Below the pieces are notes generated by a model that saw nothing but the letters and a program-made list of their open reading frames with translations, searched no databases and was not told the origin of the DNA. Shown one piece after another: positions 38,124 to 64,000 of a stretch of DNA of 64,000 nucleotides (positions within the stretch are counted from its first letter, which is position 1; each line of letters opens with the position of its first letter). This stretch comes from Mesodorylaimus sp. YZB2_4 (Eukaryota; Nematoda; Enoplea; Dorylaimida; Dorylaimidae), in NCBI GenBank assembly GCA_030248295.1, contig JASANH010000479.1:310001-374000 (forward strand), given 5' to 3'. The position numbers and the translations under genes are program-made.

Positions 38124-41100
38124 TTACCGAGCACGAACGAATTTCAGGACGTACAATCGCTCTAATCCGTGTTTCCTTTCCAGCACAACACTGCCACGTA
38201 ATCGATCATCGAACACCAGCAGGTTATCGATTCTATTCGAAGCTATGGCCACGAGATAGAAGACACCGTTGGGAGTCAGTAATCTGAAATTGAAAATGAG
38301 AGAAGACACATTCGACATGGAACAGAGGCACTCACGATGAAATATCGGGCAATAATCTGCGAAGAACCGCCGTGCCATCCACGTCACCACCGCACCAGGA
38401 TAAGGCTAAGACGCCGACTTGGTCCACTTCGTCGAAACCATCGGTTGGAACGTAGGGAGGGTTGAAAACGAGGAGATCGACCGAGCCTGAAAACAAAGAC
38501 ACACAGTCAAACATCCTCGGGAATTGAACTCTCACAGTGACGGTTAGGTTTCGAGGAAATTATCGAATCGTGGAATTTTTTATTCGATTTGTTGGTCATC
38601 AAGATAAAGAATGGATTAGAAACACGTTCGATTCTTCGTCAACCCTACTTTTAGATCTGCAGGCACAGACCAGCCAACCAGACGCACAATGCTAAAGGAC
38701 GATTTTCGCCGGCTAATAACTAACGAACGTTTCGACAAAAATTTCTGATTTTTCGCACACGTTGCAAAATAGGCCGGGTCTACAATCTTGCCAATTTTTA
38801 TCAAAATCCGTCCAGGCGTCGTCGAGTTCCAGAATACGCGATTTCTTGTTCAGTGGGGAGAAGACGAGGGGAGGAGACAACATCAGTCTGGAGCAACAAC
38901 CAGAGGTCGTGTCGTACAGTTGTAAATTTTAGTTTTTCTGAAAGCTTGAGCCTCCGGAATCTGCCTTTTGATATTCATTTTTTGAAAGCATCAATTTCTG
39001 AAAAGTCATTCCCAAAAAGTCCCTTTTTTGGCCTTTTTCATCCGTCGCTCGTCAGCTACTGGACGGATTTCGATAAAAATTGACACGATAGCGGACCTGA
39101 CCTATCTTGCGAAGCTTGCAAAACAACAAAGTTTTTGCTTAATCCGTTCTTGAGTTATCGATTATTGAAAATATTTCGTTCAGAGTTGAGCGTCTCCTCC
39201 CGCTGCAAGGGCAGTTGGACATGACGTGAAAGAGGGTCCTTACAACTGAGCCGATATAGCTCAGTTGGTAGGAAATTTGTTTCACTACGAGGTACGCGGA
39301 TCGACTCCATCACTTGACTTAATTTTTTGCTTTGTTTTTTTTCGCATGACAGAGGCACCTTACAGTGAACAAAGAACATGGTGGTGATCTTTAAATGTGT
39401 TTTCAAGTAGGGGATTAGCTATCGGATATGATAGGCGCATAAAAGAAGTAATGTTTTTTCCTGGTGTCTATATATTGCGGAGGGAGTAAAAAGTTCGTAC
39501 CCTGAGTACCTTCCGCATGAGCTGCAGCAGTGAAATTTTTAATTTACACTGCCACACATCCCACTAAAACCCCTGCAAGAAATTGCTCAGGCTGCTATCG
39601 ATGAATAGTGATTCAAACAAACTGATCATCCACCATACAGTCCAGACCTGGCACCCAGCGATTACTACCTATTCGAAAAACCCAAAAAAAGTTTATTGCG
39701 GGGAAAGATTTTTGAGTGATGAGGAAGTGAAATCAGCGACTGAGCGTTTTTTGAGGGGTGTGAGTAATCATTCTTTTTAGCCGATATTCACGCGTTGCAC
39801 GAACGTTTAAACAAGTGCATTGGTCTCAGGAGATCTTATGTCGTAAAAGAATAATCATGGCATTTATGGCATTGTTCAATATGTGGTTAGGCTAGGAACT
39901 TTTTGAACTACCCTCGTATCTACATATTTTTTAAAAAAAGGCATGCATTCGATCCTGTTAGGCGGCGTACGAATAATCTTAGGCGCGCGGCTGCAAGTTC
40001 CGTTTGGGGTTTATGCTTTTCAGAGGTTTGGATGAAGATGCATGACAGTCAGTCACCTTATTTCTCAGTTGATCTATGCATGGGCACGCAGTGTTTTGGT
40101 CGAAACTAGTTTGTAACAAAAACGAAAAACGGTCTTATTATTTCCAAAAAAGTCTGTTATGACAGACTCAAAACTTTTAGACCAGCCAATGCACAGAGTG
40201 GATAACCAGGGCTTAGGATGGCTGGTCTCCTCGGCCGCACGATGACAAGGTCATCTCATGCTGCTTAATGCACACAGTGTGTAATAACTAACACACAGAT
40301 GCTTGTCGATGTCAGCACCAAAGCCACATAGTCTGTGTCCTGCTGCTGTTTGGACAAACTCCCTAAAGGATACCAGCTGTTTCACACGATGGCAACCTGA
40401 ATACGCTAAAGCTCTAGCGCTGCTGTAACCAGCGCACCCAGGCGGCGGGAGATAGTCGAGACCGAAGTCTCTAAGCAAAAAACTCCGTCTGGAGGTAGGC
40501 AAGTCTCGCGACTATACCTGCTCTAGAAACATCAACCGAAGAGGTTGACGTCCCAGCCAGGGGAGCGTATCGATTACTCCCGACCGCCAGGCGTGCTGGT
40601 CACATTCCTCCCATCGTTGGAAAAATGGCGTCCCCGCCATTCTCCAACTGGGAGAACCAACACCCCAGTGGTGGTGCCTTATCAGCGCTAGGTGTTCCAC
40701 CCACCGTCGCGCTAAGGCGCACCAAACGCTCGCCGAACCTTCTCCTCCCGCGTAGGTAATAGCGGAGTAGGTTTCGCCCGCTGGCCCCTGGTGCCTCAGT
40801 GGAGGCAACCCAGACCGAAGTCTGGTAGGGAGTACACCTGCAGGGAACCCTCGGGCCACAGCAAGCGCAGGCGCGCCAGTCCGGCATTCACCACAACCAC
40901 CCGGGCCAGCACACTAGTCCATAATGGGCTTACATCCGAAGAAGGCTTTTTGGTTCGTGACGCCAGTGTAACCAGCGCACCCAGGCGGCGGGAGATAGTC
41001 GAGACCGAAGTCTCTATGCAAAAAACTCCGACTGGAGGTGGCCAAGTCTCGCGACTATACCTGCTCTAGAAACACCAACCGAAGAGGTTGACGTCCCAGC

Positions 41101-42326
41101 CAGGGGAGCGTATCGATTACTCCCAACCGCCAGGCGTGCTGGTCACACTGCGAGTAACGTTGAACAGCTTATCGTGAGATCCTAAGCCTTGAGTAACACT
41201 CTCAACAGTCATTCCACTTTCCAACTTTATGTGGTCATGTTTCACCACATCAGGAATGGCACACTTGATGATGGGGGAACACATTACACAAAATGATTTG
41301 CGTAGCCGGGGGTTGAACACTCGCTAGTAGTGCGCATTCAACCCGTGAGGCAGACACTTTTAGCCAACTATGTTGACCACGAACTGGATCTTTCAATGAC
41401 ATTGCTCGTTGCTTTCAAATCTGCTCGTTGCTCACGATTAGTCGTGGAGATGATATTCATGCAAAAAAAGCAGCTTGAGCACGTTTCCTAACCGACCGTG
41501 GTTGGGATTTGCAGTGACCGAGTAGACCAGCCATCCTAAGCCCTGGTTATCCACTGCGTGCGTTAGCTGGTCTAAAAGTTTTGAGTCTGTCATAACAGAC
41601 TTTTTGGGAAATAACTATTTCCACGAAAAGGCCTTCTGCAGTTGCCCTGTCGCTTCGGGACTGAGATTAGGGATTAGACTTAGTTACGCTATCCGGGTAT
41701 GGACATGGTATTGAGCGGGATTTTTCTCCATAGGACCGGGATGGCTGCACGAGCTGGCTCATTTTATCGAGACCATTGGTTTGAACATCTGGAAGGTTGA
41801 GGGGCAAGGGAGTGACCGGGATCTGGAAACTACCTCAAAGGCCAAAATATCGTAAAATTTCAACTCATCGTCAGTCCTACCTCGAAATCGATCCGACAAA
41901 CATTTTAGAAGATCCCCGACGACCACATGCACACTTGCACTGTTCAATGCCGCATTACGATGAGTGACCTCTGCAGCACAAGGATTGATATCCACTGCAA
42001 AAACGGCACATCGATTGTGACAATATTTTGCTAGCGTACAAGCCACGATTCCACAGCCGCATCCGATTTCGACACAGATTGACGGATTCAGATCCTCAAA
42101 ACCAAAGCTTGTGAACAAATCAACGTTTCAAAGCAGTCATGAAAAACTGATACACCCTGGAACTGTTCCAGTTTTGGCAATACTAGCTCTTACCTACTTG
42201 GATCTCCGTCCATTCGGCTGCCAATGCATCCAATAAAATATGCGTATCTTCGGCAGGCTCGTAAACGAATTTCTTATCAGCGCTCGTCAATTCGTATGAA
42301 GCAGGTTCGAATGACTGATTTGCCAT
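38124..42326 (-). CDS. N6AMT1: HemK-type glutamine/lysine methyltransferase N6AMT1 (eRF1 modifier)
   Basis: Exons on the minus strand: 42198-42326, 41881-42094, 38336-38486, 38124-38283 (217 aa, usual length ~214). The N-terminus has VYEPAEDTHILLDAL; the SAM-binding motif I is CVEIGCGCGIV, the acidic ribose-binding residue is in AVDINPCAA, and the catalytic motif NPPYVPT is intact. The C-terminus (TPNGVFYLVAIASN...VLKF) fits the family. Known role: with TRMT112 it methylates the GGQ Gln of translation factor eRF1. Intron 1 uses an acceptor ending TTTTGAG, somewhat weak. Intron 2 is 3.4 kb and packed with mobile DNA. The start faces MCM4 across about 490 bases. Confidence 0.9.
39245..39312 (+). 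repeat. tRNA-like pseudogene or SINE head
   Basis: TATAGCTCAGTTGGTAGG is a good box A, but the box B reads GGATCGACTCC and the acceptor and anticodon stems do not close. Lies in N6AMT1 intron 2. Confidence 0.45.
39478..39918 (+). pseudogene. Decayed, internally deleted mariner element
   Basis: Around 39636-39780 the reading PYSPDLAPSDYYLF matches the C-terminal catalytic stretch of mariner transposases (third Asp of the DD34D triad). After KIFE the frame stops and shifts to SDEEVKSATERFLRGV, the usual following segment. Rough inverted ends (GGAGGGAGTAAAAAGTTC left, GAACTTTTTGAACTACCCTC right) bound ~440 bp, far below the ~1.3 kb of a full mariner. Not functional. Confidence 0.65.
40425..40604 (+). 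repeat. R1 structured repeat, copy a
   Basis: 180 bp, nearly identical to 40968-41147. It contains a chain of short hairpins: GAGAC-CGAA-GTCTC, CTCC-GTCT-GGAG, AGTC-TCGC-GACT, TCAACC-GAAGA-GGTTGA and GGGAG...CTCCC. The two ends (ACCAGC...GGCGG and CCGCC...GCTGGT) can also pair with each other. Non-coding. Confidence 0.7.
40968..41147 (+). repeat. R1 structured repeat, copy b
   Basis: Direct repeat of copy a with a handful of substitutions, several of them in predicted loops (CTCC-GACT-GGAG here). All hairpin stems of copy a are kept. Confidence 0.7.
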
Positions 42327-42812
42327 TTTCTTTTTGAATTCTCGTTTTCGTGTTCTTCTTCGTCATTATCTGGCTAATCGTAAGCAGCGGGTATAGTAAG
42401 CCGCCAAAGCGGTAAAATAAAGTATTGGATCAAATTTTTAGATAAGTACAACGCTTGATTAGCGAGTGCTATATGAGTCATTTAAGCAAATAATCAAGAA
42501 TTTATAATGTATTTAAAGCACCAAGATAATTTATATTTGTGTATAATTGCTTTAACATTTTCTTACAACTGAAATTTAGTTTTACGCAGTGGAAACCGCT
42601 TGTTGCTCCTTGTGGCTTTCCCGCCTTTTCTAGCGTGCGGTGCACTTTTTGCTCTTAATTATTTATTTATTCTGTTATCTTTTCCGTTTCCATCTTTTTC
42701 TTTCAGTTGGCCGCAAATTTATTAGGGCTCAAGAATCAGGTAAAACCTTGTGGTAACTACCGGCATACCCGGTTTGATTTTCACTGTTCCCTTCTAGAAC
42801 ATTTCCGCGACA
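42327..42812. promoter_or_regulatory. Bidirectional N6AMT1/MCM4 promoter region
   Basis: 486 bases separate the two divergent ATGs. An exact E2F consensus TTTCCCGC lies at 42617-42624, fitting the known S-phase control of MCM genes. A likely leader intron of MCM4 runs from GTAAAACC (about 42739) to TTCTAG (about 42797). Confidence 0.5.
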
Positions 42813-47147
<4,335 letters not shown>

Positions 47148-47275
47148 AGCACAAAATCGCAAGTATTTCGATAAGACTTACTGTTTTTACTTTTTCACTT
47201 ACTATGCCCCATTGTACGTTGGCGATGGTTACACGCGTGTACGACTCACTTTTTCTGTCGTGACCCATTCTGAGC

Positions 47276-47281
47276 AATAAA
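47276..47281 (+). terminator. Polyadenylation signal of MCM4
   Basis: AATAAA 129 bases after the MCM4 stop codon, followed by a T-rich CTCTTTC stretch. Confidence 0.55.
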
Positions 47282-47623
47282 CTCTTTCAGATCTGATGCT
47301 ATTTAGATCGCGGGGTAGTTTGAACTTGCTTGCGTGATGTTCAGGTACAACGGCCGTATGCCTTCTTACGACATGACGGACTGGAGAACTAGCTTGAATG
47401 GGTGGGGAGAATCATTGTACTGTAAAGTCGAATGGGGCTGGACGGGTTGCTTGGGCGCCCGCGCTGTCATTGTTTCAAGGGCCAAGTGGATTACGCACCG
47501 ATCGTTGGATTAGGTTTCCATGGTTTCGTATAATTTTGTTCGTCGAGAAAGAGTGAGAGAATCGGCTCGTTCCGCCATAGTCCAAGCAGCTGTTCCGCGA
47601 GGATTTCTTGGCTAGTCAAGGAG

Positions 47624-48864
47624 ATGTTGGGTTCTGCGACTTCAGGTACGAGAAAAGAATTCCGAAAGATTCGCTCATGCGTTTCTTTGAAACACAACTT
47701 CCTTTTAGGGTATGTTGCCGATTTACCAGTTCGTTTGAACAAAAAATTTTATCCGTTGCCGCCGCAGCAATACGGGTTTCGTGATCGAATTATTGACTCA
47801 TCGCTGCGATTCCCTTCAGATGTGCTTTCTGAACAGGTATGGTTAGTTTGGAACTGGGGATGCGGGCTTCGTGATGTAAAATTTATGTTCCAGTTGACTT
47901 AATCTGATCATGAGGTCAGTTTGGGCATCTGTGAGACCTTGATTCCGTTTTCATGACTTCTAGAGGGACTAGAATGTCTGGGAGTCCTAGGAGTCCAATA
48001 GGAGCCAACAAGGAGTTCAATACGGAGTCCTCCGTATAAAATGCTTCAGTGCGGGGGGAATAGCCTTTATTGTTTTTGTTTGGTTGAGCCCTAAATCTAA
48101 GCTGTTTTTTGAAAATGATTAGGCACTTCTAAATATTTGAAGGCTTCACATTTTATCGTAGGATATGGTTAGATATCTCGCCAAAATTTGACTTTCGCGC
48201 AAAATGGTGGCACCCACAATCATATTTTTTGGTGTTGACCCCTTTTAGAAACACCTACACTCGGCCTCCTGGCGGATGTTGTCCGCACTTTTTCAGAGAA
48301 TACACTCATCACTCGCTCACAGAGGGAGTGCCCAGAGAGTATCTTACGCCGAATTCCCTGTTTTAGTACGATTTTTCGACGGAAAAGAAAGCGTTACAAG
48401 ATTTCCAATCGAATCTTGATCGATACGCGGTTGGTGGTGCCAAATTAGAATCGTCTCAGTCGGATATTTACTCATCAATCGAAAGCGAATCATCTGGGCC
48501 CGACTCGACATCGTCCTCGTGCTCGTCAATACCGGCTAGTGAGGAGACGCCTTACGAATCACCTGCATCAGTATCTTACCCAATCGATAGCGTGTCCAAT
48601 ATGGCGCCTTTACGACCCGTAAGTGCCACATTATCGTATCGCTCATCGGCCGCCACTCACGGCATACTTCAACCCGTTATTGCCAAAGCACCCGCAATGC
48701 AGCCAGTCGATAGGCCCAATGAACAAACCAGGCCAGTATTGCGATTGGAAGATTTCGAGAATGTCGGCGGAAGTCCTTTCGACATGGTCGAATTGAAATG
48801 CCTGAACGATATTGAAGAACTTCGACGATTATGGACGCATCCCGCATCGAACGGGTGCATCTAG
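47624..48864 (+). CDS. UMA-domain / UBAP1-like ESCRT-I-associated protein (tentative)
   Basis: Exons 47624-47645, 47709-47836 and 48367-48864 give 215 aa with matching phases. Near the N-terminus YVADLPVRLNKKFYPLP resembles the UMA box of MVB12/UBAP1 proteins (a short hydrophobic-Pro-Phe-x-Leu/Asn pattern). A Ser/Pro-rich middle follows, then a conserved-looking end DFENVGGSPFDMVELKCLND and EELRRLW. UBAP1-type proteins form part of ESCRT-I and sort ubiquitylated receptors into multivesicular bodies. This call rests on short motifs; a lineage-specific protein is possible. The 47624 ATG gives only seven residues before the first intron, so the true start could lie further upstream. It lies 0.5 kb after MCM4. 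Confidence 0.5.
47837..48366. other. Second intron of the UMA-like gene
   Basis: 530 bases. Includes a short tandem-like GGAGTCCTAGGAGTCCAATA block at 47980-48030. No coding content. Confidence 0.4.
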
Positions 48865-49757
48865 CTGCTGTCAAACCTTGGTGCGTGCATTGGTTGTGCG
48901 AATAGTCCTAAGCGACCTGGTCTTACTATTCACCACATAAGGGCATGGTTTTACCACGGAGACCTTGAATGCGAGTCTTATTCACCTTTCCAAAGATGGA
49001 AGTTTTTCCTGGTGCGATCAGATACTCTGCTACTAATGTGATTTTATTCCACCTGAGCGAGGTGATGTAGCGCGGGCGGCTAGTTTTCCTGTGTTTATAA
49101 CCTGGTTTAGTTTCATTTTATAGCTGCTATAAATTCGTTAACTGACAACTTTTCCAGCCATCTTCTTCCGATACAAGGCATCGCTGTACAAAAGTGTGAC
49201 GTCATATTTGAAAAACATAAACCACTCGACATGACTGGCGTCTACTTTCGTCGAATAATGAACATAATTTCTGTACAAAGGCACACAATCGACACAACAC
49301 GCGTGCTTCTGAAAGAGCGAGCAGAATAAGATAGTACACGAACAATCCATCTAGACTACTGTGCCCCCCCACAACACGCAAAGCAACGACAAGCAGAGAG
49401 TGAGTAGATGGAACAGGTGAAGAGTGCCGTCATGCGTGCCTCTACCCGGGTCTCCATCAGCAGTCCCTCTCTCTACTACTGCCGAGAGTCGCCCTGTTCG
49501 AAACAAAGGCACGCCAACAAGCAAGCCATTCCAGAAATAAGAACAAGTGCATCACTAAGCGTCAGGTACGCATAAAAAACTAAACCCACACTCCATCAAC
49601 AATGATCCCCCCTCCATAGAGTGGCCTAAAACTGTCACACATAACATTCATATGACACAGCACCAATGAGCACAGACGGGAGAGGCAACGACCAATAAGA
49701 CTCCTCCCATTCTCATATTCAACAATACTTGCCCAGCCTGCAAGGTACGAAGCCTGA
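48865..49757. other. Region between convergent UMA-like and SCP genes
   Basis: 893 bases with no supported gene; expected 3' UTRs of both genes. Short ORFs on either strand carry no motif. Confidence 0.4.
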
Positions 49758-52700
49758 TTACCGGACTTGCAACTGCAATCGTTCCGTGATGGCCGAATTG
49801 CTGATCGCGCTCACACTCGACGTATTCGATGTCGACTCCGAATTGGCACTATTGTTTAATATAACCACGCCTTGAGTCGATGGTGGCGGCGTCGCGACTG
49901 GTTCGTTCGAATTACTTAACAACGAATATATGTTCTCCACTTTGGCCAACCGCTCCAAGAAAGGTACCAGATCGAGCAGTTCCGTGTCGTTCATATCATC
50001 GAACCACGACTGCACGGGGATCGCGTTGTCCGGATGAAACGCGTACGAAGCGGGCGAATTGTCAATTATGACCACTTTCTTCAAATCTCGCCCGAGCCGA
50101 TTCAAATCCTGAAACACAAAATGCATCATGTATATGTGCTGGCACCATCACATGTATGGGCATCCAGGGGAGGTGTAGACCACTAAAAACCTGAAAACGA
50201 TCTCCGGAAGTTACCCTACCCTGAAGATTATCAATAGGAAGTCCTAATCTAATTCCAATAAAAACAGCCTACTTTTTTGTACATACACAAGTATTTCTCA
50301 AAGAATTTAAATTAGAAAAAAGCGGGAAGATGACCCACAACATTTCGACGTTCCCTAAACACGCATCACCCATCTCATCCTTCCATGCCCGTCCTTTCGA
50401 CAAGTCTAAAACCGTCCACACCCCTCTGACACAACCCAGCACCCAAACACAATACACACCTTCACATAATTTCCTTTATGAAATACACAGGCCTCTCGAA
50501 ATAGTCTCGCTCGAAAAACGCCCCACCTGTCCAACAAGTCCGCCACGGGATCTGCATACTATAAAAAACCAACATCATTATTCAACATGCGACACATCCA
50601 AAAAACCAACCAACCTTCGCTAAACTGGCGGTGAACAAAATACACTCGTATAAACCGCTAATTCTTTGAAGAAATTCATCCACGTACGGCCGTTTTAGTA
50701 CATACACCTGAAATAGAAAACTCTCTCGCGTCCACTCTATCGCTCCCCACACTGGCTTGGACACTATCCAACTCACCTGACACACACCTACACTTGGTCA
50801 TCATTACCTGACACCTATCCAGGATAACAGAGCCTCAGAGACCACCCGTTGCTCTCCCAAGGGCACCACATCTAGACTTACTTGATGTATGACAGAATCG
50901 ATTTCTACCGGAATTACGAAATCCGGATTCTTCACAGGCTGAAAGGAAACGATCACTTGACATCAGCAATCCATTCGTCACGCCGACTTGTTTACCTTAA
51001 ATGAACTATGCACCAACGTCTCGTCCAAATCGATAATAAGACACTTCTTATTATAATCACACGGCCGGACTGGAGGCAGAAGCAATCTTTCCGATAACTG
51101 AAACAAACGTCACTCTGGCTTCCATCGCACACGACAAACATTTCTAACCACATTACCTTGGGCGAGTAATGACCAGCTTGTTGCTCAGCGCTTAGAACTA
51201 CAGCAGGCTCGGCCGCCTTTGTGCGCCAACAGCACAATAAACTGCGAACGAAACGTCGTGCTCTCGGTTTCTTAATTATCACAGTTGGCTTCGTATGCTC
51301 TGAAAAAAAAACAGGAAAACTCTTGGTCAAGAGAACATAGAATCAGAAAACCAATCTCCTCTTTCGCATACGCACCCACTACATTTGACTTTTGCCCAGA
51401 TTCTGCGCTCGGCTCAACAAAAAACTCGATCCTTTTCGCGACCTAATCAAACGCAGAGGCTAGTTTTTTCCTGCGATTCATGCGGCACCTATCAGTTTTC
51501 CCATGGACGTATTCTTCAGCTATCTGTGCATACACATCCTCGGGACACAACTTGACACCACATAGTCTCGGCGTGTGCTGCGTAATATGCCAACACTGAC
51601 AATGGTGTTGCACTCGAAAGCAAATCCAACTCACGTGCGGGCTGACACGAGGCCGACGACACGGCGCCAAACAAAGGATTCGCCAAAGACGTGATAGGTA
51701 AAGCTGATAAGCCTGCATTCCACGATGTTGGCGACGTGGAAAATAGAAACCACATGGGTTTCGAATCATCGCATACAAAATCCGAATATTTGGCCATCGG
51801 AGGCAGGATCATAGGAAATACTCCTTGCAAAGCCATTCACACCTTTCTGCACTCGATTCCAAATGCAATGCTTCTTCTTTCCGCACCACGAGATAATCAA
51901 TGCGCAGAATATTCAACAAGATTCCGCCAAGAAAATGAGGTCCGACACTTCAACTGGAATATATCGAAGAACGCATTAGGAATGTCATCAAAGTCAAAAT
52001 GCAATCGTTACCGCATCAACGACCGTCCTCGTCAACAGGGTCATTCGCCAAGAATCAGGGCCATATATCGTATTAACGCGGATAAGAAAAACTAGACACT
52101 GGACCCACTGACACGATTCGAACCGCTCTCAATACTACGTTACTGGTAGAAGTCGGTACCACTTTGTCCAATTAAATACTATTCAATAATACTTTACGAC
52201 AAACGCATAGGCAAAACCGATTGTCAACGAATCAAAGTGATGAAATGTGAAAGACGTTCAAGATCCTGCCCAAAAACAATACGTGCAGACGGACGCAAAG
52301 GCGTGTTATCTACTCTCGATCAAATTTGGACTAACTCCAAACACACACACGTGCAGTTGACTGATAAAACGGTTTTACAATGAGGAATCTTGTTTTCTAC
52401 TCAAATTTACCGCCGTAAAACACGTAGGACAAAAACAATCGCGACAATACGTTCTCGACAACGAAACAACAATCCATTATAAACTGATAAACCTGAGTTT
52501 CCTGCTTGCAATTCATTGACCTTGACTCTAATTCGTCAAACCTACGCCCGAAGTGACTTGAATAGAAAGAAATCCAAGGGGGTAATGGTGAATTATTCAA
52601 TCAATCCCATTCCAGTGGGAACAAGATCAGACTAGCAGATTCCAACCCTATCAACCCATTTCGACGGACATATGAAGGATCGTTCACATTTTCTAACCAG

Positions 52701-53085
52701 CAACCAGAGTGGCTCCCGTTATGCCATCCCAAGGAACTGATCTCGAACAAAATATGTCGATCACTTTTCGCGAAAGAACTTTTCTGTCAAAAAAAGCTAG
52801 TTTCTATCCATGCCCTTTCCCGGGATCCATTACAGAGTATTATATTGGCAATGCACCGTGTCACGTGCCATTATTCGCTCCCGCCGAGTCGTTTTCACTA
52901 TTATTCAAGCAAAGAACGTATATAACTCACGCCTTATCTCATGATCTTCGCCTCCGCACACTTGCCCCATTGCCAATAAAGGGACAAGTAAAAAAAGAAA
53001 AAATGCACTTACCTTCGGGAGTAAACTTTTCCAATGATTGAATCTCGTCATTTTTCGTGACCTGGGTTATAATTGATTGAGCCAT
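49758..53085 (-). CDS. CTDSPL: Small C-terminal domain phosphatase (SCP/CTDSPL family)
   Basis: Exons on the minus strand: 53013-53085, 51157-51299, 50996-51097, 50882-50938, 50615-50707, 50460-50558, 49758-50108 (305 aa). The N-terminus [14 protein letters not shown] matches the SCP-type start; a basic-Cys patch ([10 protein letters not shown]) may be acylated. The catalytic FCP1 homology domain has [14 protein letters not shown] (nucleophile Asp and general acid Asp), [26 protein letters not shown] and [17 protein letters not shown] with [13 protein letters not shown]. Known role: Mg-dependent removal of Ser5 phosphate from the RNA polymerase II tail, and control of SMAD and REST. Animal SCPs end near YSLL; here about 55 extra Ser/Asn/Thr-rich residues follow. 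The first intron is 1.86 kb. Confidence 0.93.
51300..53012. other. SCP gene intron 1
   Basis: 1.7 kb, AT-rich, without recognised repeats. Typical place for regulatory DNA of this family; nothing specific seen. Confidence 0.4.
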
Positions 53086-54527
53086 ATCGTAAGAATATCC
53101 CGCATGCCGATTCGAACAACTAATGCACTTGTCAAAATCGGCAACGGCAAAATTGTGCGACTAGGAAATGTTCCTTTCTGTTATCGCAATCTATTGTCCT
53201 ACGCCGTCACCAACCTAAAACAATAATCTGGTCATAAGATTATCAAACAGATTAGACCTCATTTAAGTCAGAATCAACCTAAACTAGCGCATTCTCTCAT
53301 GATAAAACAGGCATTCCTTCGGGACGATATTATTAGGCACGCGCAGAATGTCAAGGACCGTTAGAGAATGAAAAATGACCACGTTTCGCGCAAACATATC
53401 AAATAAGAGCACGTACGCGGGTACAGAGTTCATGAGAGGCTACACAAACCGAGGAAGCTATCACGATCCAGCCAAGACACCCATATTTAGGGAAACAATC
53501 ATCCTATCAGCGTCATGCCAACAAGAAACCAGCTGTCAGTCATTCCGGACATGACAGCTCTTTGAAATCCCCAGAGATTAGTAAAATTTATAACCCCTAC
53601 GCGAATTTTTCGTCGACTCCTTTGTTTCAAAATTGGTGCGCTAACAGGCACATTTGCAGCACAAATGACCATAAACACGTCTGTTTCTTTCACGTAACCG
53701 GCCTACGTACAATGTACAAGTACAAGGCATCGCCCCAAGCAAGGGCTAATTATGGTAAACTGGTTAATCCTGCTTCAGGGGCGTGTTACTCAGAGACAGG
53801 TCATGTCCGCGTGTGTTTGGCTAATGGCCAAAAATGCAGCTTTTTAGCTAAATTGAATCATATACCCTACTTTAAAATTTGGTTAAAAATCAAAATTTAG
53901 CTTACAAGCTAGTTTAATAATAAAAATTAAATCTTACTCTTCCTTGTGCTAACCAAAGAGCCCGACAAGGAGGCGAGCTCGTAATAAGGCGTTGTCTGGA
54001 ACTAATAAGCCCGAGTACTGGTCGCCGTGATGATATGTTCAGACATTGCCTGCGCAAACGCTCGAGTTTGTGACCGACGCTAATGATAAGGTGACCAAGT
54101 CGCGATCGACCGAAGACAGAAAAGGTCGCGAGAATGGAGTAGACCGACGGTCGTACGCCAGTCTAGCCAAAGACGCCGAGCTTGCTTCGCTCCGGCCGGA
54201 ACAAACCACCCGCAACATTCGCTCGCTTGCTCGTTTGCTGCTTATGGCAAAACGACTTACACAGATTTCACACGAGTATTTCACCCCACCTCAATTATTC
54301 GTCTACATTCTCAATATCAGATGTGTATCAAAAGAAAGAGATTTCTTTCTCAATTTTTAAACATTTGCTGTTCATATTGAAAGAACTACTAAGCTAACTT
54401 CCTAAAAACAAAGCAAGCAATTAATTAAGCTGGTGAGAAATACTGCTGAAGTTCCCTAGCTGGATTGATCCGTTTGATTTTGGTTTTGGTTTGGTATCGT
54501 ATGTTTTCAAATATATAGGTGATTATC
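53086..54527. other. Divergent region between SCP and CTNNBL1
   Basis: 1.44 kb separating divergent starts, so promoters of both are expected here. No tRNA, repeat or motif-bearing frame identified. Confidence 0.4.
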
Positions 54528-56382
54528 ATGTCATCAATTAATGTGGACGATATTCTGGCTTCAAAGGTAAAGTAACAGTATGTCGGTGTCAATTTTGCAA
54601 ACTGTGTTTGTTATATACCGTACCTCTGCTTTTTTCATGCCAGTGCCCTATTTTTGTTAAATTTGGATTATTAAATCGTTTTGTCAAATTTCAGAGTCGT
54701 GACGACCGCAAACGACCATCATCTTCCCGTACTTCCGATGAAAATGATCCGAAATCTCTTAACGGTGCGTCTTCGGTATTTAAACGATCGAAACAGAATA
54801 CCTCGGTCGACGAACCCCCTCCAACCAGCATCAGCCTTCCCGACGTGGAATCGGATGGAGTCGAGCAAATGGATGAGAACGCTGTTAAACGCTTAATCAC
54901 AAATTTCGAGAAACGATCCTTGAGAAATACAGAAATGCGTATCAAATTTCCTGATCAACCGGAGAAATTTATGGAATCGGAAATCGAACTGAATGTGGGC
55001 ATTCAAGAAATGCACGCAATCGCCACTGTGCCGCATTTGTATTTCATGCTCACATCAACTGATACCGTCAAAACGTTGTTGCAGTTATTATTGCACGAAA
55101 ATACGGACATATCTTGCGCCGTTGTCGATTTATTGCAAGTAAGTTGCTGCGCTTCGAATGTAAATACTATGGCGGCCTATCAGAAATTTTTACATTTTTT
55201 AAGGAGTTAACCGACGTCGACACTCTCCATGAAAGCGAGGAAGGGGCAAACGCCCTTATTGACAGTTTGTTAGCGGGTCAAATCATAGCCGTCTTAGTTC
55301 AAAACATGGTTCGCTTAGATGAATCGAGTCGAGACGAAGCGGACGGAGTGTACAACACGTTCGCTGTGGTCGAAAATATGATCGATTTCCGACCAGAAAT
55401 TTGTCAATTGGCCGTTGATCAAGGCCTTTTATCGTGGATTTTGAAACGACTTCGGACAAAATCGCCCTACGACGCTAATCGATTCTATTGCAGCGAAATT
55501 TTAGCCGTTTTTCTGCAAAGTAACGACGACTGCAAACGAGTGACAGGCGAACAAGATGGAATCGATATTCTTTTGCAACAATTGGCAGTCTTTAAGCGTC
55601 ATAATCCAAACAGCAACGACGAAGTAGAATATATGGAGAACCTATTCAATTGTCTCTGCGCCGCTTTGTTATTCGCTCCGAATCGAGCTAAATTTCTGGA
55701 AGGCGAAGGACTTCAGTTGATGAATCTAATGCTTCGTGAAAAAAAGATGTCCAGAGAAAGCGCTTTGAAAGTTTTGAATTACTCAACGACTGGTCCGGAA
55801 GGCAAGGCTAATTGCGACAAGTTCGTTGAAATTCTTGGCTTGCGCACTTTATTTCCATTATTCATGAAAACGCCAACAAAAAACAAAAGGAAGGGCCACA
55901 GCGCCGAAGAACACGAGGAACACGTGTGTTCAGTGGTGGCTTCGTTATTGAAGAACTGCGGGGATGAACAACGGCAAAGAATTTTCAATAAGTTCGTCGA
56001 GAATGATTTCGAAAAGGTGGAACGCGTGGTTGAATTGCATTACAAATATAGGGAGAAGGTGGAAAAATTTGAGAAGGAATTTATGCGACGACGCGCGTCG
56101 GACGAAGAATTGGACGAGGAGGAATTATATTTGGAAAAATTAGATGCTGGTTTATTCACTTTACAATTGGTCGATTACATTTTGGCCGAAGTGTACGTGA
56201 ATGGGACGAGTGCAGTTGTGGAACGATTGAAGAAAATATTGGCAATGAAAGGAGGCTCCATGAAGAAAGTGAAAGAAGTTCTGGTGGAGCTCGCCGAGAA
56301 TTTGGGTCAGGGTGATGAGACGAGATCGACGGGCGATGGTGGACATCGAGATAGGATTGTGCATTTGATTCAAAAACTTTAG
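54528..56382 (+). CDS. CTNNBL1: Beta-catenin-like protein 1 (spliceosome-associated)
   Basis: Only three exons, 54528-54566, 54695-55138 and 55204-56382 (553 aa; human 563). A basic, Arg/Lys-rich N-terminus (RDDRKRP) serves as a nuclear signal; then NEKRSLRN-like and FPDQPEKFMESEIELN mark the family, followed by armadillo-type helices through the rest. Conserved blocks include LLLHENTDISCAVVDLLQELTDVD (split by intron 2), LLAGQIIAVLVQNM, FYCSEILAVFLQ and NRAKFLEGEGLQLMNLMLRE. In animals it binds CDC5L/PRP19 complex and AID. Intron number is low compared with the receptor and MCM4 genes. AATAAA follows at 56409-56414, and the next gene starts 122 bases later. Confidence 0.95.
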
Positions 56383-56408
56383 ATTAGAAAAGAAATTGTA
56401 TCTTTATG

Positions 56409-56414
56409 AATAAA
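56409..56414 (+). terminator. Polyadenylation signal of CTNNBL1
   Basis: AATAAA 27 bases after the CTNNBL1 stop. Confidence 0.6.
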
Positions 56415-56535
56415 GGGTCTTTATAAAGTTGTGTTGAATTGGTTTAAGTTTGATTATTTTCGATGTATTTTTCGCGATTTGACCATGGATTTGATGAAGT
56501 GATGTTGATGTTGTTTGTGGCAGGGAGTAACAAGA

Positions 56536-59500
56536 ATGGCGATTCGTTGTCCTTTTCCAATCGATAATCTGATGACGCCCGCATTTTGCGTAGATCGGAG
56601 TCGGATAAGCCGAAATTGTGAGCGAATGTTGAAGGTTGCCCGCGAGTTGGGTGTCCAACTGCGCCCTCACATGAAGACGCACAAGACCATGTGAGTGTGG
56701 ATTTGACTGCAGTGTCGAACCCCTTTTGTTAAACATATTCTTGGTTTCAGAGAAGGAGGTGTTCTGATGACGGGCGGCACAAAAAGGGGGATCGTGGTCT
56801 CGACTTTGGCCGAAGCAGAGTTCTATGCCGAGGCTGGATTCGATGACATTCTATACGGGTACCCGTTGACACCAGAGAAGATACCCAGGTGAGTGCGCAC
56901 GAGCACTGGGCAGCTGGGGCATCCCATCAGGGTGATGTTTCAGCTGCGGACCAGGTGGGAAGACTTGGTGCAGGTTTGGCAAAGCCCACTATCCTGGTAT
57001 ACGTCGAGGCCCGTATGTGCCTGGACGTATACCAGGATCCTTTTGATGTTGCAAGTGTTGCCTACTGCCTGGAACGTGCTAGAATGAAGTGGTGATGGCC
57101 ATTTGTGTATGCATGGGGCAGTATGTATTACTGGAGGGAATGACCAGTGGAGCATTTGCACCCTTAGAAAACCCAGGCTAACTAAGAAAATCTTCCGACC
57201 TGTTCCATGGGCTGAAACATCACCCTAACGGGTGGCGCTCCAAGCTGCCAGATCTGTGCAGAGGATCGGCTCCCGATCGAGCCTCTACGCTAACAATAAG
57301 TCTGTGTAAGGTGCTGACATGCCCTACTCAAACGCTTATGCGGGTTGTGCGTGACCCCATTGGTATGTACTGGCTGCCCCAACAGTTGTTTAGAGCATGG
57401 TATCTCCTGACCTGCCGCAAAGTTGGACTTGGCATATTTTCAGTCGACAGTATGCGCGCACCTTGTGCTTCCTAGCCCCTCTCATGCCAAACTGCATGGC
57501 CACTGTGCGCGAGTGAGTGTCAACCAACGCTCTAGTACCGTGCTGTACGTGCTACCGGCTAGCTACTTACCAAGTATACATAGCCCTCCTAACGGTAATG
57601 TAACCAGCGTTCCTGGCGGTCGGGTGATCAATACTCTCCCATGGCTGGAAGACGTCAACTTCTCCAGTTGATGTTTCTAGGGCAGGTATAGCCGCGAGAC
57701 TAGCCCACCTCCAGTTGGAGGTTTCGTCCCAGAGACTTTGGTCTCCCACTTCTCCAGCCGCCTGGGTTCGCTGACTACAGTAAGCTTGATGCCTCAAAGA
57801 CAGCGCACACACTTGCGTGAACGTTTTCTGAGTTTTACTTTACACTCTCATCTGCAGTAGGTCACGTGATATGCGCATATACTGCATTCGTACCTGGTTC
57901 ACAGTACTGCACGCTAGGGCACTGTTTCAGATGCTTGCAATTGTCGAGCGGGCTTGATCAGTTCCACGTCTTCACCGACAACCATGTCACAATCACCGCC
58001 CTGGCCAACTGCCACAATCCCAAGGGCTGGTCTGTCTTTGTGAAGGTGGACTGCGGCAATGGACGAGGTAGGTGGGACTGCATGGTGCGGCTAGCAGGGC
58101 ATTGGTTGTGCACGGTGGCGACCGTTCTGGTGAGTGGACGGAACATGCGGTGCAGAAGGGATCAAGACAAGAAGTACTTGCATGCCTTCATCAACGAGTC
58201 CAAGTGTTTCCTCTGCTGTCGTCAACCAGCCTGGGACTGTGACCAAGTAGAAGGGGAGGAGAAATCAAGGCTGTGCTAGCCATCTGTCAAAACTCAAGTC
58301 ATGCTGCTCATGACTGACTCACTGGGTCTGATAAAATCGTATTTCGCTCATAATCCAAGCAGGAAAAGAGGCGAAGGAAAGGTCTGAAAACTGACATGCG
58401 GGCTCTAAAATTGTTGAATTGCCCACTCGTCGTCAGAGCAGAAGCCACCATGCCTCTTATTCCTCAAAACCCCCAAAAATTAAAGAGCAGTACTTCACTA
58501 GAAGCAATTTAAATTTCGCGCCAAAAATATCGTGACTATTCGCGGCCCGTGCCCTTTATTGAGTTTATCTGAGGACTAGCTCACTTGAGTGCACGACCTT
58601 TCAGGTTAGGACGAAAGTGAGCAATGTCCTGTGAGAAGCTGTGGTCCTACCAAATTTGGCAATGTGTGTAGATTGATCCCAAAGGCAGGGTCTGATGGAT
58701 CTTCGTCCTCTGTATAATTTGCAACACCAAGTGCGCATCCGTGTCTTACCGTTAGCTGGAGTCCACTGGGAGGACGTATCACTCGGCGTCTCCTTGGTCA
58801 AGATGATTGTGGCGCACGATAACTTACGTTTTGCTGGTCTCTATGTCCACTGCGGAGATTCGTATAAAGCTGGTTCGGATGGGGTCACCAAGGTGACCGA
58901 TGTGGCAAAAAGAACCATTGAAAGATTGCATTCCTTTGCTAATGGGTAAGAAGGCCCGAGTTCGATTCCCAGCCAGGGTAACATTTTTGGGAACCTTATT
59001 TTCCTTTTTTAGGATCAAAGCGATGTGTGGTATCGAGTGTTCTCGCGTTGGTATTGGATCCACTCCGGCGTGCAGTAAGCCTATTGTGGAAATGAAAGGT
59101 GTATCGGAAATACATCCAGGAAACTATGTTTTCTATGGTGAGGACATGGAAGCTTTGACTGGCCATTCCATCCTGTGCCAATCTGTCCCCATCAGATGCG
59201 CAGCAATTCACGTTGGCCAGCTGCACACTGGACGACATCGCATGCACTTTGGCCACCCGGGTGATCGGTCATTACCCTCGTCGCAACCAAATGCTCATCG
59301 ACTGCGGGTTCGCCGCCTTGACCAAACAAGGCATGGGCCAATTGCCCAGCGGCTGCGCAATTTTTCGAGACGACGCCAATTTGAAGCAAGTTGTATTTTC
59401 TGTTGCAACCAAGCCTGGCAGGCTTATCGTTAGGAGAGAGTTTTTGTACCCCCCCCCCCCCCCCGACTTTGGGTGTCCACCCAAAGTCGGGGGGGGGGGG

Positions 59501-62500
59501 AGGGGAAGGGGGGGCCAAAAACTCCGACTGGAGCAGGCAAGTCTTGCGACTACCTACGGCTGAAACATCAACCCGAGAGGTTGACGTCTTCCAGCCAGGG
59601 GAGAGTACTCTCCCCCACTCGTCATAGCCATGGCGAGGGTTACATTGTCTAGAGACCTCGAGCAACCTAGCGTTCAATGGGGTCATAGTCCTGATTGCCC
59701 TATCCCAACATCAGCCCTGATTTAGATGGGTGGATGGGACTCCCAAACAGCCGAACCTCATTCTGACAATGCCTTTGCTAGCAGGTAAGAAGGGCCGATC
59801 ATGTGGTCTGGAAAAGTAGCATAAACAGATCGTGCTAAGTGTAAATCAAGGATAACATCCGTGTTTAGGGGTGCGATGACAATGGCAATGACATCAGGAT
59901 CAAGGCAGCGTACGGTGATCTTGGTTGATCTGCATATAACAATGTGTATCAGACCAGCTTTGAGCAGTCCCGGATGGGGTCGATGAGACCTCACATCACA
60001 GAGCCTTGTCATAACTGCTAGACTCATATATCTAAACTGCTAGTCCCGGCCTGAACCAACGTCAGTGTAATCAAGACTGGCCGGCGTAGGGGAGAATATG
60101 GCTAACGGGATAAAAACTCCGAGTGGAGCAAGGCGAGTCTGCGACTAATTATTGATCTCCCAACGAGGGGGGGGGGGGGGACCTGGACGAAGTTTCATGG
60201 TGCTAACTTGTAAGTGACCCTTTATTGTAGATTGCTGGACATGACTCAAGAAATAGGCAAGGTGACAACTGTCGACGGTCAGGCACTGGCTTGGAAAAAG
60301 TACCCGATCGGCTCAATGCTATTTATGTATCCCTGGCATGTAAGTAGGGGCGGGTCAGAGTCCTTCCACTTTGATCTGTGTACTTAGTGTATGGGCCCCA
60401 CAGAACTGTCCCTCCGCAAGTATTGCACAAAATAGGAGACACGAGTCATCGCAATCTCGTGTGAAAAGTCTGTCCCGAAGGTCCCGTGAAGACACCAATT
60501 GAATCGACCAGTCTGTCGAAATCGATTAATACCTCGGATCCTATTATGCAGCTCCAAGGGCCATTGAAAATCTGCATTATTCGCAAAGAATCCAAGGGCC
60601 ATTGCAAAGAATTCTTTTTAATTGTCTTGGATTCTTTGCATTCTGCATTCTTTGCAGTTTTCTCGTCATGTACTGGCGCTGCTAGATGAAATGCGAGGGG
60701 CTGAATGCTCGCGAGGGTCCCGCATGAGACGTAAAGCAAGCGCCGTGGGTGACTCAGTCGGTACCGTCAGGGTGCTCCGAGTGGAGAGACGGAAGCCAAA
60801 CGAGGAGGCGGTCTCGGCTGTCGAACACCGACATGGTGGAAAGCCCACCCGCCATCGTCCGAGGAAGCCAGTGTGCAGTTCAGGATTCCCTTGTGTGCAT
60901 GTACTCCCCGTGGGGATGTGCAGAGGGAGCCTGCTGTGAGACCTGCTGGTCACCTCACGGCCTCGCTTATTATATATATATGAGTTGTGGCCCGCAATAT
61001 GCAAAACGGGTTAGAAGTCGCATGGGTTTACAAAACTTAAGAAAAATGAGATTAAAAACAGACTCGTGCCGTGCTCAAAAATACGACTTAATGAAAAAAT
61101 CTTTGTAGATTTCTCAATTGGGTTTTCTTTATTTCTATATTTTGCATCTGGGAAGGATTTTACAGCGGCAGAAGAGGAACTGAGCTACCTTGTGACGAGG
61201 GAACTGTCCAGTGTGATGATGAATTCGATAGGCAAATGTAGAATTGTCGCAGAAAACGCATTCTAGAAATTTGTCAACAAAATTCAAATCTTACTTCAGA
61301 CAGTCTTCTTGCGGCACTATTAACATGTCTGTGAAAGTGTAGCTGCGTGCAACTGTATCACGAAGTTTATAATTGAATTACTGACAATTTTGCCCGGTTG
61401 GAATTCGCGACACACGAGGCATATGTGATACGAATTTGCCGTGTCTAAGTTTATGCGTGTGCGGCTGTCGCGGCTAATTAGATTGCTGCCTAAGCTTTCA
61501 CCCGCCCACCAACTCCAACTGCATCCTTTGCATGTTGCTACACTGCGAGACTGGCGTCTCCTTGGTCTCTTGTGCTTGTCTGACTCAAACTTCCAATGCA
61601 CAGTTGGAAGTCAGTGCCCTTGGCTGTGTTGCAGGGCTTTAGTTGTCCGCTCTTGGTTCTCTGATGTTTGTAATAATCTATTGCTGGCAGGATGAGATTC
61701 CATAGCTAAGAAAAAGGCGGGTTTCTGTTTTCAAAATAAATGTATACATTGACTGAAAATTACAATGCCTCCTTGTAATCTTACCTAGCAAGTGCCCTGA
61801 TTGATTTAAAATTAGATATCCTTATTTTTCTCAGCTGTGTAACATCGTGTCGGGGCATGTCATGTCATACTTTATCCCAATCCAAGCACTGTACAGCGCA
61901 CTCGAGGGCTAAGAAACACGTCGACAATAATTTTTGCCCTGGCGGGAGTCGAACCCCGTCGAACCGGGGTCGTCGCCTAGCGGGTTAAGGCGTCTGCCTC
62001 TCACGCTGTGTGCTTACTTACAGGGGAGGGTTCGACTCCCGCCTCGGTACAAAATAATTGTCAAACATGTGTTCCTTAGCCCTCGAGTGCGCTGTACAGT
62101 GCTTGGCTATGGATAAAGTATGATGTGACATGACAACCCTCTGCTGTAAGTGCGCGCCCAGCGTGAGAGGCAGACGCCTTAGCCACTAGGCCACGACCCG
62201 GGCTTGTGTCACCAGTAGCTTATTATGAACCTGACGACGATATTTTCTCAATCGCAGAATACTGTCGATGCGAACTCGAAGAAACCAAAGCCCCGCAGCA
62301 TAGCCAAAGGATCTGCCGTTGGAAGTCTGAAATGGAAATTTTAGTCACACAATCCCTTAAAAAAAGACCATGGGAACGCATTGCGAGACATTTGTTTAGT
62401 TAGAACACAAGGAGGCGGTGTGACAACGGCTACACGCGTAAATTTGAACCATGAGTGGGACTCGAACCCGGGCTTCTGAGATTGCGAGTTCAGTGCGCTA

Positions 62501-62931: not shown

Positions 62932-64000
62932 TCACTCGCGGTTGCTCTCCAATCCGCGACACTCCCCACTGACGATTTCTAAGGGGTATAATTGACCTAT
63001 TGCGCGTTTGATTTCTTGTCCATTGGCCAGCTTGATGATGGCGACACGAATGCTTCCATCAGTTGATGTTATGACACCTTTGATGATGCCAGTGCGCCAA
63101 CGATGTCGCGGGTCTTCTGACTTAATTTGCACGATTTCTCCGATTTGCGGTGCGGATGCTGACTTGAGCCTTCCTTGTTTGAGTTGAACCCTCTGGCGTT
63201 CTCGCAGAGATGTCAAGTATTCGGTTTGCCACACTCGAACGAATGCATTGTATATGTTGCGTAGACGTGTCCAGTATTCTTTGATGGCCTGTTCGTTTAA
63301 GGTGGCCACGCTTTCTCCACGAGGGGATTCTCCTGGATGTGTAAAATGAGCTGGCGTTATTACCGTTTCTCCGATTTCAGATCCCACATGCACGAGTGGG
63401 CGATCATTGATTACAGCTTCTATTTCGGCTGTAAGCACCTGCAGCTGTCGCGAGTTTAGTAGTGCATTTCCGACTGTCTTGAGCAGCGCTCGCTTAACCA
63501 TTCCCACAAGTCGCTCGTAGAAACCACCCATCCAGGGGGCCCGTTCAGGTATACGTTTCCATTGAATTCCATGGTCAGCAGCGAACCTCTGTACGTGCTT
63601 TGCGGTGAATTGACCAGCGTTGTCCGACCAGACCACTTTTGGCTTTTGTCGGCGTGCGATATAGATGCGGAAAACGTTGAGAAAGTCGTCAGCGCCTAAG
63701 CCCTCAACGACCTCGAGATGGACTGCCCTTGTTGCGGTGCATGTAAATAGGCAGATCCAACGCTTTGCGAGTTTGTTCTTCCCAATTGTAACTGTGAGTG
63801 GACCAAGGTAGTCGACGCCAATCGACCCGAACGGGGTGAAGACATTGACTCGTTCACGCGGTAAGCTTGGAGATTCTGGCGCAGTAAATGGACCTCCATC
63901 GAGCTTTTTGCACTGAGTGCAGCGACGAATGACATTGAACACAACCTGCCGTCCGGCGGTGACCCAAAAGCGTTGGCGAAGATGAGCGAGCGTCTGTGCC
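62932..64000 (-). CDS. BEL/Pao retrotransposon polyprotein, integrase end (partial)
   Basis: An open frame enters from the right edge and stops at 62932. It starts in the HHCC zinc region (LAHLRQRFW...IRRCTQCKK), continues through the catalytic core with Asp in VDYLGPLTV, Asp in VVWSDNAGQF and Glu in WMGGFYERLVGMVKRAL, and ends with the Pao-type tail (GEIVQIKSEDPRHRWRTG...GQLYPLEI). All three catalytic residues and the frame look intact, which suggests a fairly young insertion. Its 3' end lies within 250 bases of the DSD stop, in the opposite direction. Gag, protease and reverse transcriptase would lie beyond 64000. Confidence 0.88.
   Translation of the reverse strand, partial: AQTLAHLRQRFWVTAGRQVVFNVIRRCTQCKKLDGGPFTAPESPSLPRERVNVFTPFGSIGVDYLGPLTVTIGKNKLAKRWICLFTCTATRAVHLEVVEGLGADDFLNVFRIYIARRQKPKVVWSDNAGQFTAKHVQRFAADHGIQWKRIPERAPWMGGFYERLVGMVKRALLKTVGNALLNSRQLQVLTAEIEAVINDRPLVHVGSEIGETVITPAHFTHPGESPRGESVATLNEQAIKEYWTRLRNIYNAFVRVWQTEYLTSLRERQRVQLKQGRLKSASAPQIGEIVQIKSEDPRHRWRTGIIKGVITSTDGSIRVAIIKLANGQEIKRAIGQLYPLEIVSGECRGLESNRE

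Follow-up and report, generated by a model that had tools for sequence, protein, structure and literature searches.

What kind of element is R1, a short repeat that occurs five times (copies a to e) in a 64,000-nucleotide stretch of a nematode genome (Mesodorylaimus sp. YZB2_4, contig JASANH010000479.1, positions 310,001 to 374,000; hereafter the window), and what does its folding mean? An earlier note on this stretch proposed R1 as a self-contained, undescribed element, built from a chain of hairpins and selected as a folded RNA. Genomic matches and fold z scores bore out a dispersed, non-coding and strongly folding family, whereas the self-contained element gave way to another identity: R1 is very probably the long terminal repeat (LTR) of a non-coding, non-autonomous LTR retrotransposon, a terminal-repeat retrotransposon in miniature (TRIM), with two main subfamilies in the genome. 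As an element it belongs to a known kind, and its unusually structured LTR is the point of interest.

A single 724-bp unit (40424-41147) has copies a and b as its direct terminal repeats. The earlier note had overlooked this relationship and the 4-bp target-site duplication of the unit, and it did not recognise the strand. The two copies start 543 bp apart, and the same distance was found at six further places among the best 40 matches of copy a; at loci with this spacing the outer flanks were variable and the inner flanks constant. Along the minus strand the order is LTR, C, TGGCGTCACGAAC..., GATGGGAGGAA, LTR, with a primer-binding site (PBS) after the first LTR and a polypurine tract (PPT) before the second, and no open reading frame (ORF) of at least 150 aa was found in 40424-41147. 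As the layout is LTR, PBS, interior, PPT and LTR within 724 non-coding bp, we assign the unit to the TRIMs, whose features it shares: direct LTRs with TG...CA ends, a constant 4-bp duplication outside the pair, a PBS, a PPT, and a non-coding length below about 1 kb. From the positions of PBS and PPT we infer that the RNA is read from the minus strand for a and b and from the plus strand for c, and we call this the sense strand.

The PBS matches a tRNA of the same genome. The four tRNA-Ser(CGA) genes end in ...TTCGTGACG by pattern search (all four were also called by ARAGORN), and the complementarity to this tRNA extends over 13 nt in subfamily A and over 10 contiguous nt in the subfamily D copies examined. 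The LTR end joined to TGGCGTCACG was found at 122 genomic sites, compared with none for a reversed control. We looked closer at 21 PBS sites in 20 regions, where the H3 motif GGTTGATG lay at most 210 bp upstream at 13 and a PPT stood before a second LTR start downstream at nine. Several of the other sites retain the R1 tail only, and one, L101, differs in its LTR.

A gapped pattern of the intact LTR matched 458 genomic sites and its reversed form none, and the lengths, judged by eye in the 100 sites listed, were mostly near 181 or 196. First-look searches returned 1,730 candidates for copy a and 2,444 for copy d, numbers that are not copy numbers, and 40 of each were scored. From the examined loci a script assembled 20 composites of 565-752 bp, dropping those with the same inner sequence (e.g., L031); we regarded as well preserved the 12 with LTR-LTR identity above 75%, which measure 565-724 bp with interiors of 186-362 bp. 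Exact 4-bp outer flanks were present in all 12 and in one of the other eight, which are decayed, truncated or wrongly delimited. Neither PBS nor PPT adjoined 35 of 60 LTR rows, the solo LTRs, and exact 4-bp duplications bordered 26 of 34 distinct ones, copy c included (27 of 35 rows, with L061 counted twice). Such identity arose in 16 of 1,190 cross-pairs used as a control, and flank matches at 3, 5 or 6 bp were found in none of the 35 rows. The paired LTRs were 100% identical in five of the 12 well-preserved composites (96.7% in the unit of the window), indicating that some insertions are recent. By this evidence the element would be transcribed, packaged and reverse-transcribed, primed by tRNA-Ser and with proteins supplied by an autonomous LTR element, whose integrase would insert it, and recombination between LTRs would leave the solo copies.

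The two subfamilies differ in LTR length, 181 nt in A (a and b, with c as an old relative) and 196 nt in D (d), and they share a core. Between a representative of each (L037 for A, L087 for D) 91 of 112 columns of the core were identical, compared with 16 of 33 and 37 of 58 in the 5′ and 3′ parts, respectively. The two interiors reached 46% aligned identity against a mean of 43.0 and a maximum of 45.7 in 100 shuffles, and by eye the likeness lay mostly at the PBS and PPT ends. The conserved core could reflect either selection in active lineages or exchange of LTR pieces. A locus bearing on the latter is L101, where positions 1-410 (C21:384975-385384) hold another LTR family with a TATAAA and a perfect 16-nt tRNA-Ser PBS, followed by a truncated R1 LTR; C231:57548-57769 shares this LTR and PBS. 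The junction is suggestive of template switching and hints that LTR pieces may indeed be exchanged.

Predicted folds of the LTR were strong. On the sense strand copy a reached -95.2 kcal/mol with a z score of -7.65 (antisense -6.65) and the D-type LTR of L052 reached -104.6 kcal/mol with -7.88 (antisense -5.62), while copy c, scored on its antisense strand alone, had a z score of -3.14. The sense strand was the more stable in 55 of 59 LTRs. Helix probabilities, computed from ensembles of 46 distinct LTRs, singled out as robust on the sense strand H3 (0.97, n = 42), the GNRA hairpin H4 (0.91, n = 40) and the outer 7 bp (0.89, n = 46), and the complementary ends that the earlier note had reported do pair in the predicted folds of a and c. 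H5 was not robust (0.20, n = 37), H6 had a probability of 0.73 in D (n = 12) and 0.14 in A (n = 23), and H1 had 0.08, where the register tested in D differs from that of the best fold of L052. The chain of hairpins, as modelled, thus consists in part of motifs that form locally but are absent from the optimal fold of the whole LTR. The H4 loop, found in 58 of 59 LTRs, was GCGA in 35 and GCAA in 21, and the H6 loop, found in 51 of 59, was UUCG in 45 and UUUG in five. A run of five or more T directly 3′ of the H5 stem (46 of the 56 LTRs where that stem was found) and an ATCGAT in the H1 loop region (50 of 58) recur as well; neither proves a function.

At several positions pairing is possible on the sense strand, where the opposite strand would have A-C: columns 39-57 (G-U in 21 of 21), 36-60 (G-U 17, A-U 4) and 6-22 (A-U 10, G-U 10, other 1). 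In subfamily A a C-A stands on the sense strand in the outer part of H4 (manual reading), which counts against sense-strand selection. Pair changes in old copies gave 40 G-U versus 33 A-C, and the other four sets 22-64 versus 24-56, with no clear bias.

Covariation, which had been suggested as a check on the genomic copies, was supported for one hairpin between the subfamilies and was mixed over all copies, depending on the alignment. In 21 LTR cores with 35 pairs, 96.9% of cells paired, compared with 36-49% when slid. In helix 6, D has C-G/C-G where A has G-C/A-U, so that two pairs changed on both sides; the number of cells with such a change (20) and the covariation score exceeded all 500 shuffles. 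A tree-based null modelled on R-scape, run with 40 simulations on a structure-fitted alignment of 96 LTRs, gave the helix 6 pairs E values of 0.004 and 0.02 among 35 pairs. Double events that kept a pair numbered 36 in these 96 LTRs versus 2.6 expected (maximum 8), and 29 versus 2.2 (maximum 6) and 9 versus 0.8 (maximum 4) in two further structure-fitted alignments. With sequence-only alignment they numbered 12 versus 4.8 in 94 copies that included the weakest matches (maximum 10 of 200 controls), 3 versus 1.0 in 78 distinct copies (maximum 5 of 200 controls) and 2 versus 0.4 in 58 copies (maximum 3). The signal therefore owes much to fitting the alignment to the structure and to including weak matches. 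The A/D change in helix 6 is missing from both printed sequence-only event lists, probably through misalignment, and RNAalifold on the first MAFFT alignment returned 15 pairs with a covariation term of -0.08 and left helix 6 unpredicted. Most pairs vary hardly at all.

The compensatory change in copy c, on which the earlier note had built, carries little weight. A letter-by-letter check found its stems GAGAC/GTCTC, CTCC/GGAG, AGTC/GGCT and TCAACT/AGTTGA as described. The last one differs by a C>T plus a G>A, both of them transitions, and the solo LTR that carries them is old; the resulting T-A pair occurs in two of 91 copies, and the single-step states C-A and T-G in five and four. The AGTC/GGCT stem, called a wobble, is one on the strand of the earlier note but a C-A mismatch on the inferred transcribed strand. 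Seemingly compensatory changes in fossil copies can thus be misleading. The claim of selection on a folded RNA retains its plausibility from the stability, the conserved core and the one hairpin that changed on both sides.

Could the family be something other than a TRIM? Its LTR ends pair and its solo copies have 4-bp duplications, as would be the case for a palindromic DNA transposon (a miniature inverted-repeat transposable element, MITE) with the complementary ends as its terminal inverted repeats (TIRs), moving alone. We rejected this reading, which is highly improbable, on the grounds that the well-preserved composites carry the duplication outside a direct pair in 12 of 12 and that a PBS and a PPT are present. 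These two signals sit at opposite inner borders of the interior enclosed by the pair, and the PBS matches a tRNA of the genome. Within the TRIM reading, the core might be an RNA that has escaped recognition (other than tRNA, 5S or hammerhead), closed through the LTR ends and acting from a circular or read-through RNA, for instance self-cleaving or of RNA polymerase III (Pol III) type, a case that we consider rather unlikely. Another case within the TRIM reading, of the type seen in Cassandra, Helenus and Ajax (the TRIMp3 group), would have transcription driven from the core by a small-RNA gene or Pol III unit that has gone unrecognised; it is less likely still. The 4-bp duplications and a PBS for the 3′ end of a tRNA are as in animal Helenus in the available part of PMC10886601, neither TATA[AT]A nor AATAAA occurs in the 46 LTRs, the T run after H5 could be a Pol III terminator, and A-box-like best matches reached 10-11 of 12 positions on the sense strand and 9-12 on the antisense strand, values that come without a control. 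Against it, B-box best matches reached 7-9 of 11 (sense) and 7-8 (antisense), ARAGORN called no tRNA in 11 R1 loci, and Rfam at gathering score reported one tRNA elsewhere in the window and nothing at R1. By E-value, Rfam gave one match in 40000-41700 (E 2.2) and seven in seven loci (E 0.26-8.9, all below gathering score). No 5S rRNA was matched in the window, in 40000-41700 or in the seven loci, where a short Ajax-type piece could escape. The same Rfam searches matched no hammerhead or other ribozyme at threshold, in keeping with the earlier note, which had seen no hammerhead core and no known family, and this speaks against a retrozyme-like TRIM whose LTR fold would be a self-cleaving ribozyme of a new type on a circular genomic RNA; strong folds, moreover, require no catalysis. 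That case we hold to be improbable. In its favour, the fold extends over the whole LTR, a stretch left uninterrupted only if the RNA is circular or a read-through transcript, and plant retrozymes (available part of PMC4918200) likewise have two LTRs, a PBS, a PPT, 4-bp duplications and an interior without coding sequence. On the plus strand, a GAAAC-hairpin-GTC arrangement was considered as a hammerhead and dismissed, as it has no CUGANGA arm (our own reading).

A serious alternative, which we rate below an even chance though well above those just described, accepts the TRIM and denies its fold any selection as RNA: the palindromes would have their role on DNA, for integrase or other proteins, or would simply be inherited. 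The terminal complementarity sits at the ends on which integrase acts, variable pairs are few, sequence-only covariation stayed within controls for the best 58 and 78 copies, G-U and A-C changes in old copies were about equal, and H5 and H6 fare better antisense. To be set against this are the UUCG and GNRA loops on the sense strand, the G-U pairs at columns 39-57, 36-60 and 6-22, the swap of helix 6 between subfamilies, and the 12 double events that exceeded all 200 controls. Our own reading, a TRIM with a folded LTR, has in turn several results weighing against it. The flank match was used in part to set ends and inclusion in both the solo and the composite sets, which makes decayed cases weak evidence. 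H5 and H6 were likelier antisense than sense (0.49 versus 0.20 and 0.58 versus 0.34), and for those two helices this counts against the sense strand; pairs with a change in both partners were no more numerous (2) than in shuffles (500 of 500), and no pair passed correction over 8,001 column pairs with the tree-based null on 96 LTRs. The absence of TATA[AT]A and AATAAA from the 46 distinct LTRs belongs here too, as does that of an autonomous partner: by eye, when 100 of 122 and 16 of 16 listed PBS sites were compared with the 150 scored of 526 integrase candidates, no integrase match lay close downstream on the same strand. On balance, the odds are about even that the conserved core acts as RNA within the transcript, where its likeliest role would be that of a compact leader aiding packaging, dimerisation or priming. 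Structured R-U5 leaders in retroviruses serve such roles. Among roles for the core we place the leader ahead of a Pol III-like module and this ahead of a ribozyme, with the absence of any RNA function as the serious alternative.

Two loci with a PBS and no PPT seen (L082 and L083) were inspected by eye for an autonomous partner; downstream, LINE-like ORFs were visible in one, whereas the other showed nothing that could be recognised. The window itself contains a BEL/Pao-type integrase (rve + DUF5641) at 62932-63942 on the minus strand, in a decayed or window-cut LTR element. An integrase of this type points to an animal host; SL1 RNA was not found in a search whose controls gave no match. Elsewhere, integrase matches lie about 0.4-1 kb from the contig start on the minus strand (C76, C78, C92, C111, C128, C174, C192, C538) or at high coordinates on the plus strand (C119, C123, C132, C435), in open frames of up to about 2,900 codons; the assembly may have broken in one long LTR element, or the elements may face chromosome ends.

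Of the five copies for which the same stem order had been claimed, only a, b and c keep it; three of the four stems are present in the truncated copy d, where the first is missing, and two in copy e, a fragment. Copies a and b both have GAGAC/GTCTC, CTCC/GGAG and AGTC/GACT, and the fourth, TCAACC/GGTTGA, is present in a but reads CCAACC/GGTTGA in b. Within the window, a and b align at 93% over 196 nt and a and inverted c at 81% over 130 nt, far above chance, and a search with copy e gave nine matches, counting itself. Poly-C/poly-G tracts stand where d and e break off (59447-59513 and 60166-60180), the former a palindrome around GACTTTGGGTG/ACCCAAAGTC; they could be assembly artefacts or G-run expansions. 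Other repeats were seen nearby: inverted repeats with a tRNA-like head (GTGGCCTAGTGGCTAAGGCGTCTG...) at 61856-62184, probably tRNA-derived SINEs in both orientations, and a 57-nt pair at 75% (1265-1321 and 60742-60798) sharing GTGGAKAGACGGAAGCCA, apparently another dispersed family.

Table 1. Predicted parts of the R1 TRIM and further R1 copies in the window.
Feature	Position	Strand	Remarks
TIR element hosting the TRIM	40138-41614		97-bp TIRs, 94% complementary
Target-site duplication CTGC, left	40420-40423		Identical to 41148-41151; GCAG/GCAG on sense strand
R1 copy a, predicted 3′ LTR of TRIM	40424-40604	-	Direct repeat of 40967-41147, TG...CA ends, PPT before it (sense)
PPT GATGGGAGGAA	40605-40615	-	Adjoins 3′ LTR; similar tract precedes 3′ LTR in other composites
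Non-coding interior	40605-40966	-	362 bp; no overlapping ORF of at least 150 aa
Predicted PBS TGGCGTCACGAAC	40953-40965	-	13 nt complementary to CCA-tailed 3′ end of tRNA-Ser(CGA)
R1 copy b, predicted 5′ LTR of TRIM	40967-41147	-	96.7% identity to copy a
Target-site duplication CTGC, right	41148-41151		Pairs with 40420-40423
R1 copy c, putative old solo LTR, relative of subfamily A	57599-57779	+	181 nt; GTAA at 57595-57598 and 57780-57783; 81% identity to a
R1 copy d, putative truncated subfamily D LTR	59512-59644	-	Cut by poly-G palindrome; 93% over 101 nt to D-type LTR of L052
R1 copy e, putative old LTR fragment	60066-60165	-	Ends at poly-G run; best non-self match 82% over 76 nt

What had appeared as a mystery RNA is now a defined mobile element, whose strand, limits and signals are at hand for any test of its RNA, and its folded LTR core, kept while interiors diverge, offers a system for studying RNA signals that let a non-coding element borrow machinery. 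As to its place among known elements, R1 does form part of a longer transposon, which is half of one refuting outcome named in the earlier note, a known longer transposon. Among titles and abstract starts, with Repbase and most subscription papers outside the search, we found no description of a TRIM with a multi-hairpin LTR. R1 is not a plain SINE, as the earlier note had argued: its 4-bp duplications lie flush with TG...CA ends, and no tRNA head was found in 11 loci, the marks of a SINE being a Pol III head, a 3′ tail and a variable target duplication. Helenus, Ajax and Cassandra (TRIMp3) resemble R1 in having short LTRs with RNA-like sequence, and animal Helenus has 4-bp duplications, some bivalve Helenus using tRNA-Ser (PMC10886601, available part). 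The tRNA-like LTR sequence of Helenus has no counterpart in R1 according to ARAGORN (11 loci) and Rfam, nor has the 5S rRNA in the LTR of Cassandra according to Rfam. In the portion of PMC4918200 at hand, plant retrozymes share with R1 a non-coding sequence, two LTRs, PBS, PPT, 4-bp duplications, structured LTR RNA and solo LTRs; compared with them, no hammerhead was found in R1, its PBS is for tRNA-Ser and not tRNA-Met, and its LTRs are about half as long. The ta-TRIM of taeniid cestodes is likewise an animal TRIM with a non-coding interior, 4-5-bp duplications and solo LTRs, for whose LTR the available part of PMC4558846 describes no fold. PbTRIM of the red harvester ant, for which the accessible text of PMC3532108 also describes no LTR fold, has a TATAAA box in its LTR, unlike R1, and yet it is an animal TRIM similar to R1 in size (elements of 480-781 bp with LTRs of 152-184 bp), in its 4-bp duplications, in its PBS and in its solo LTRs.

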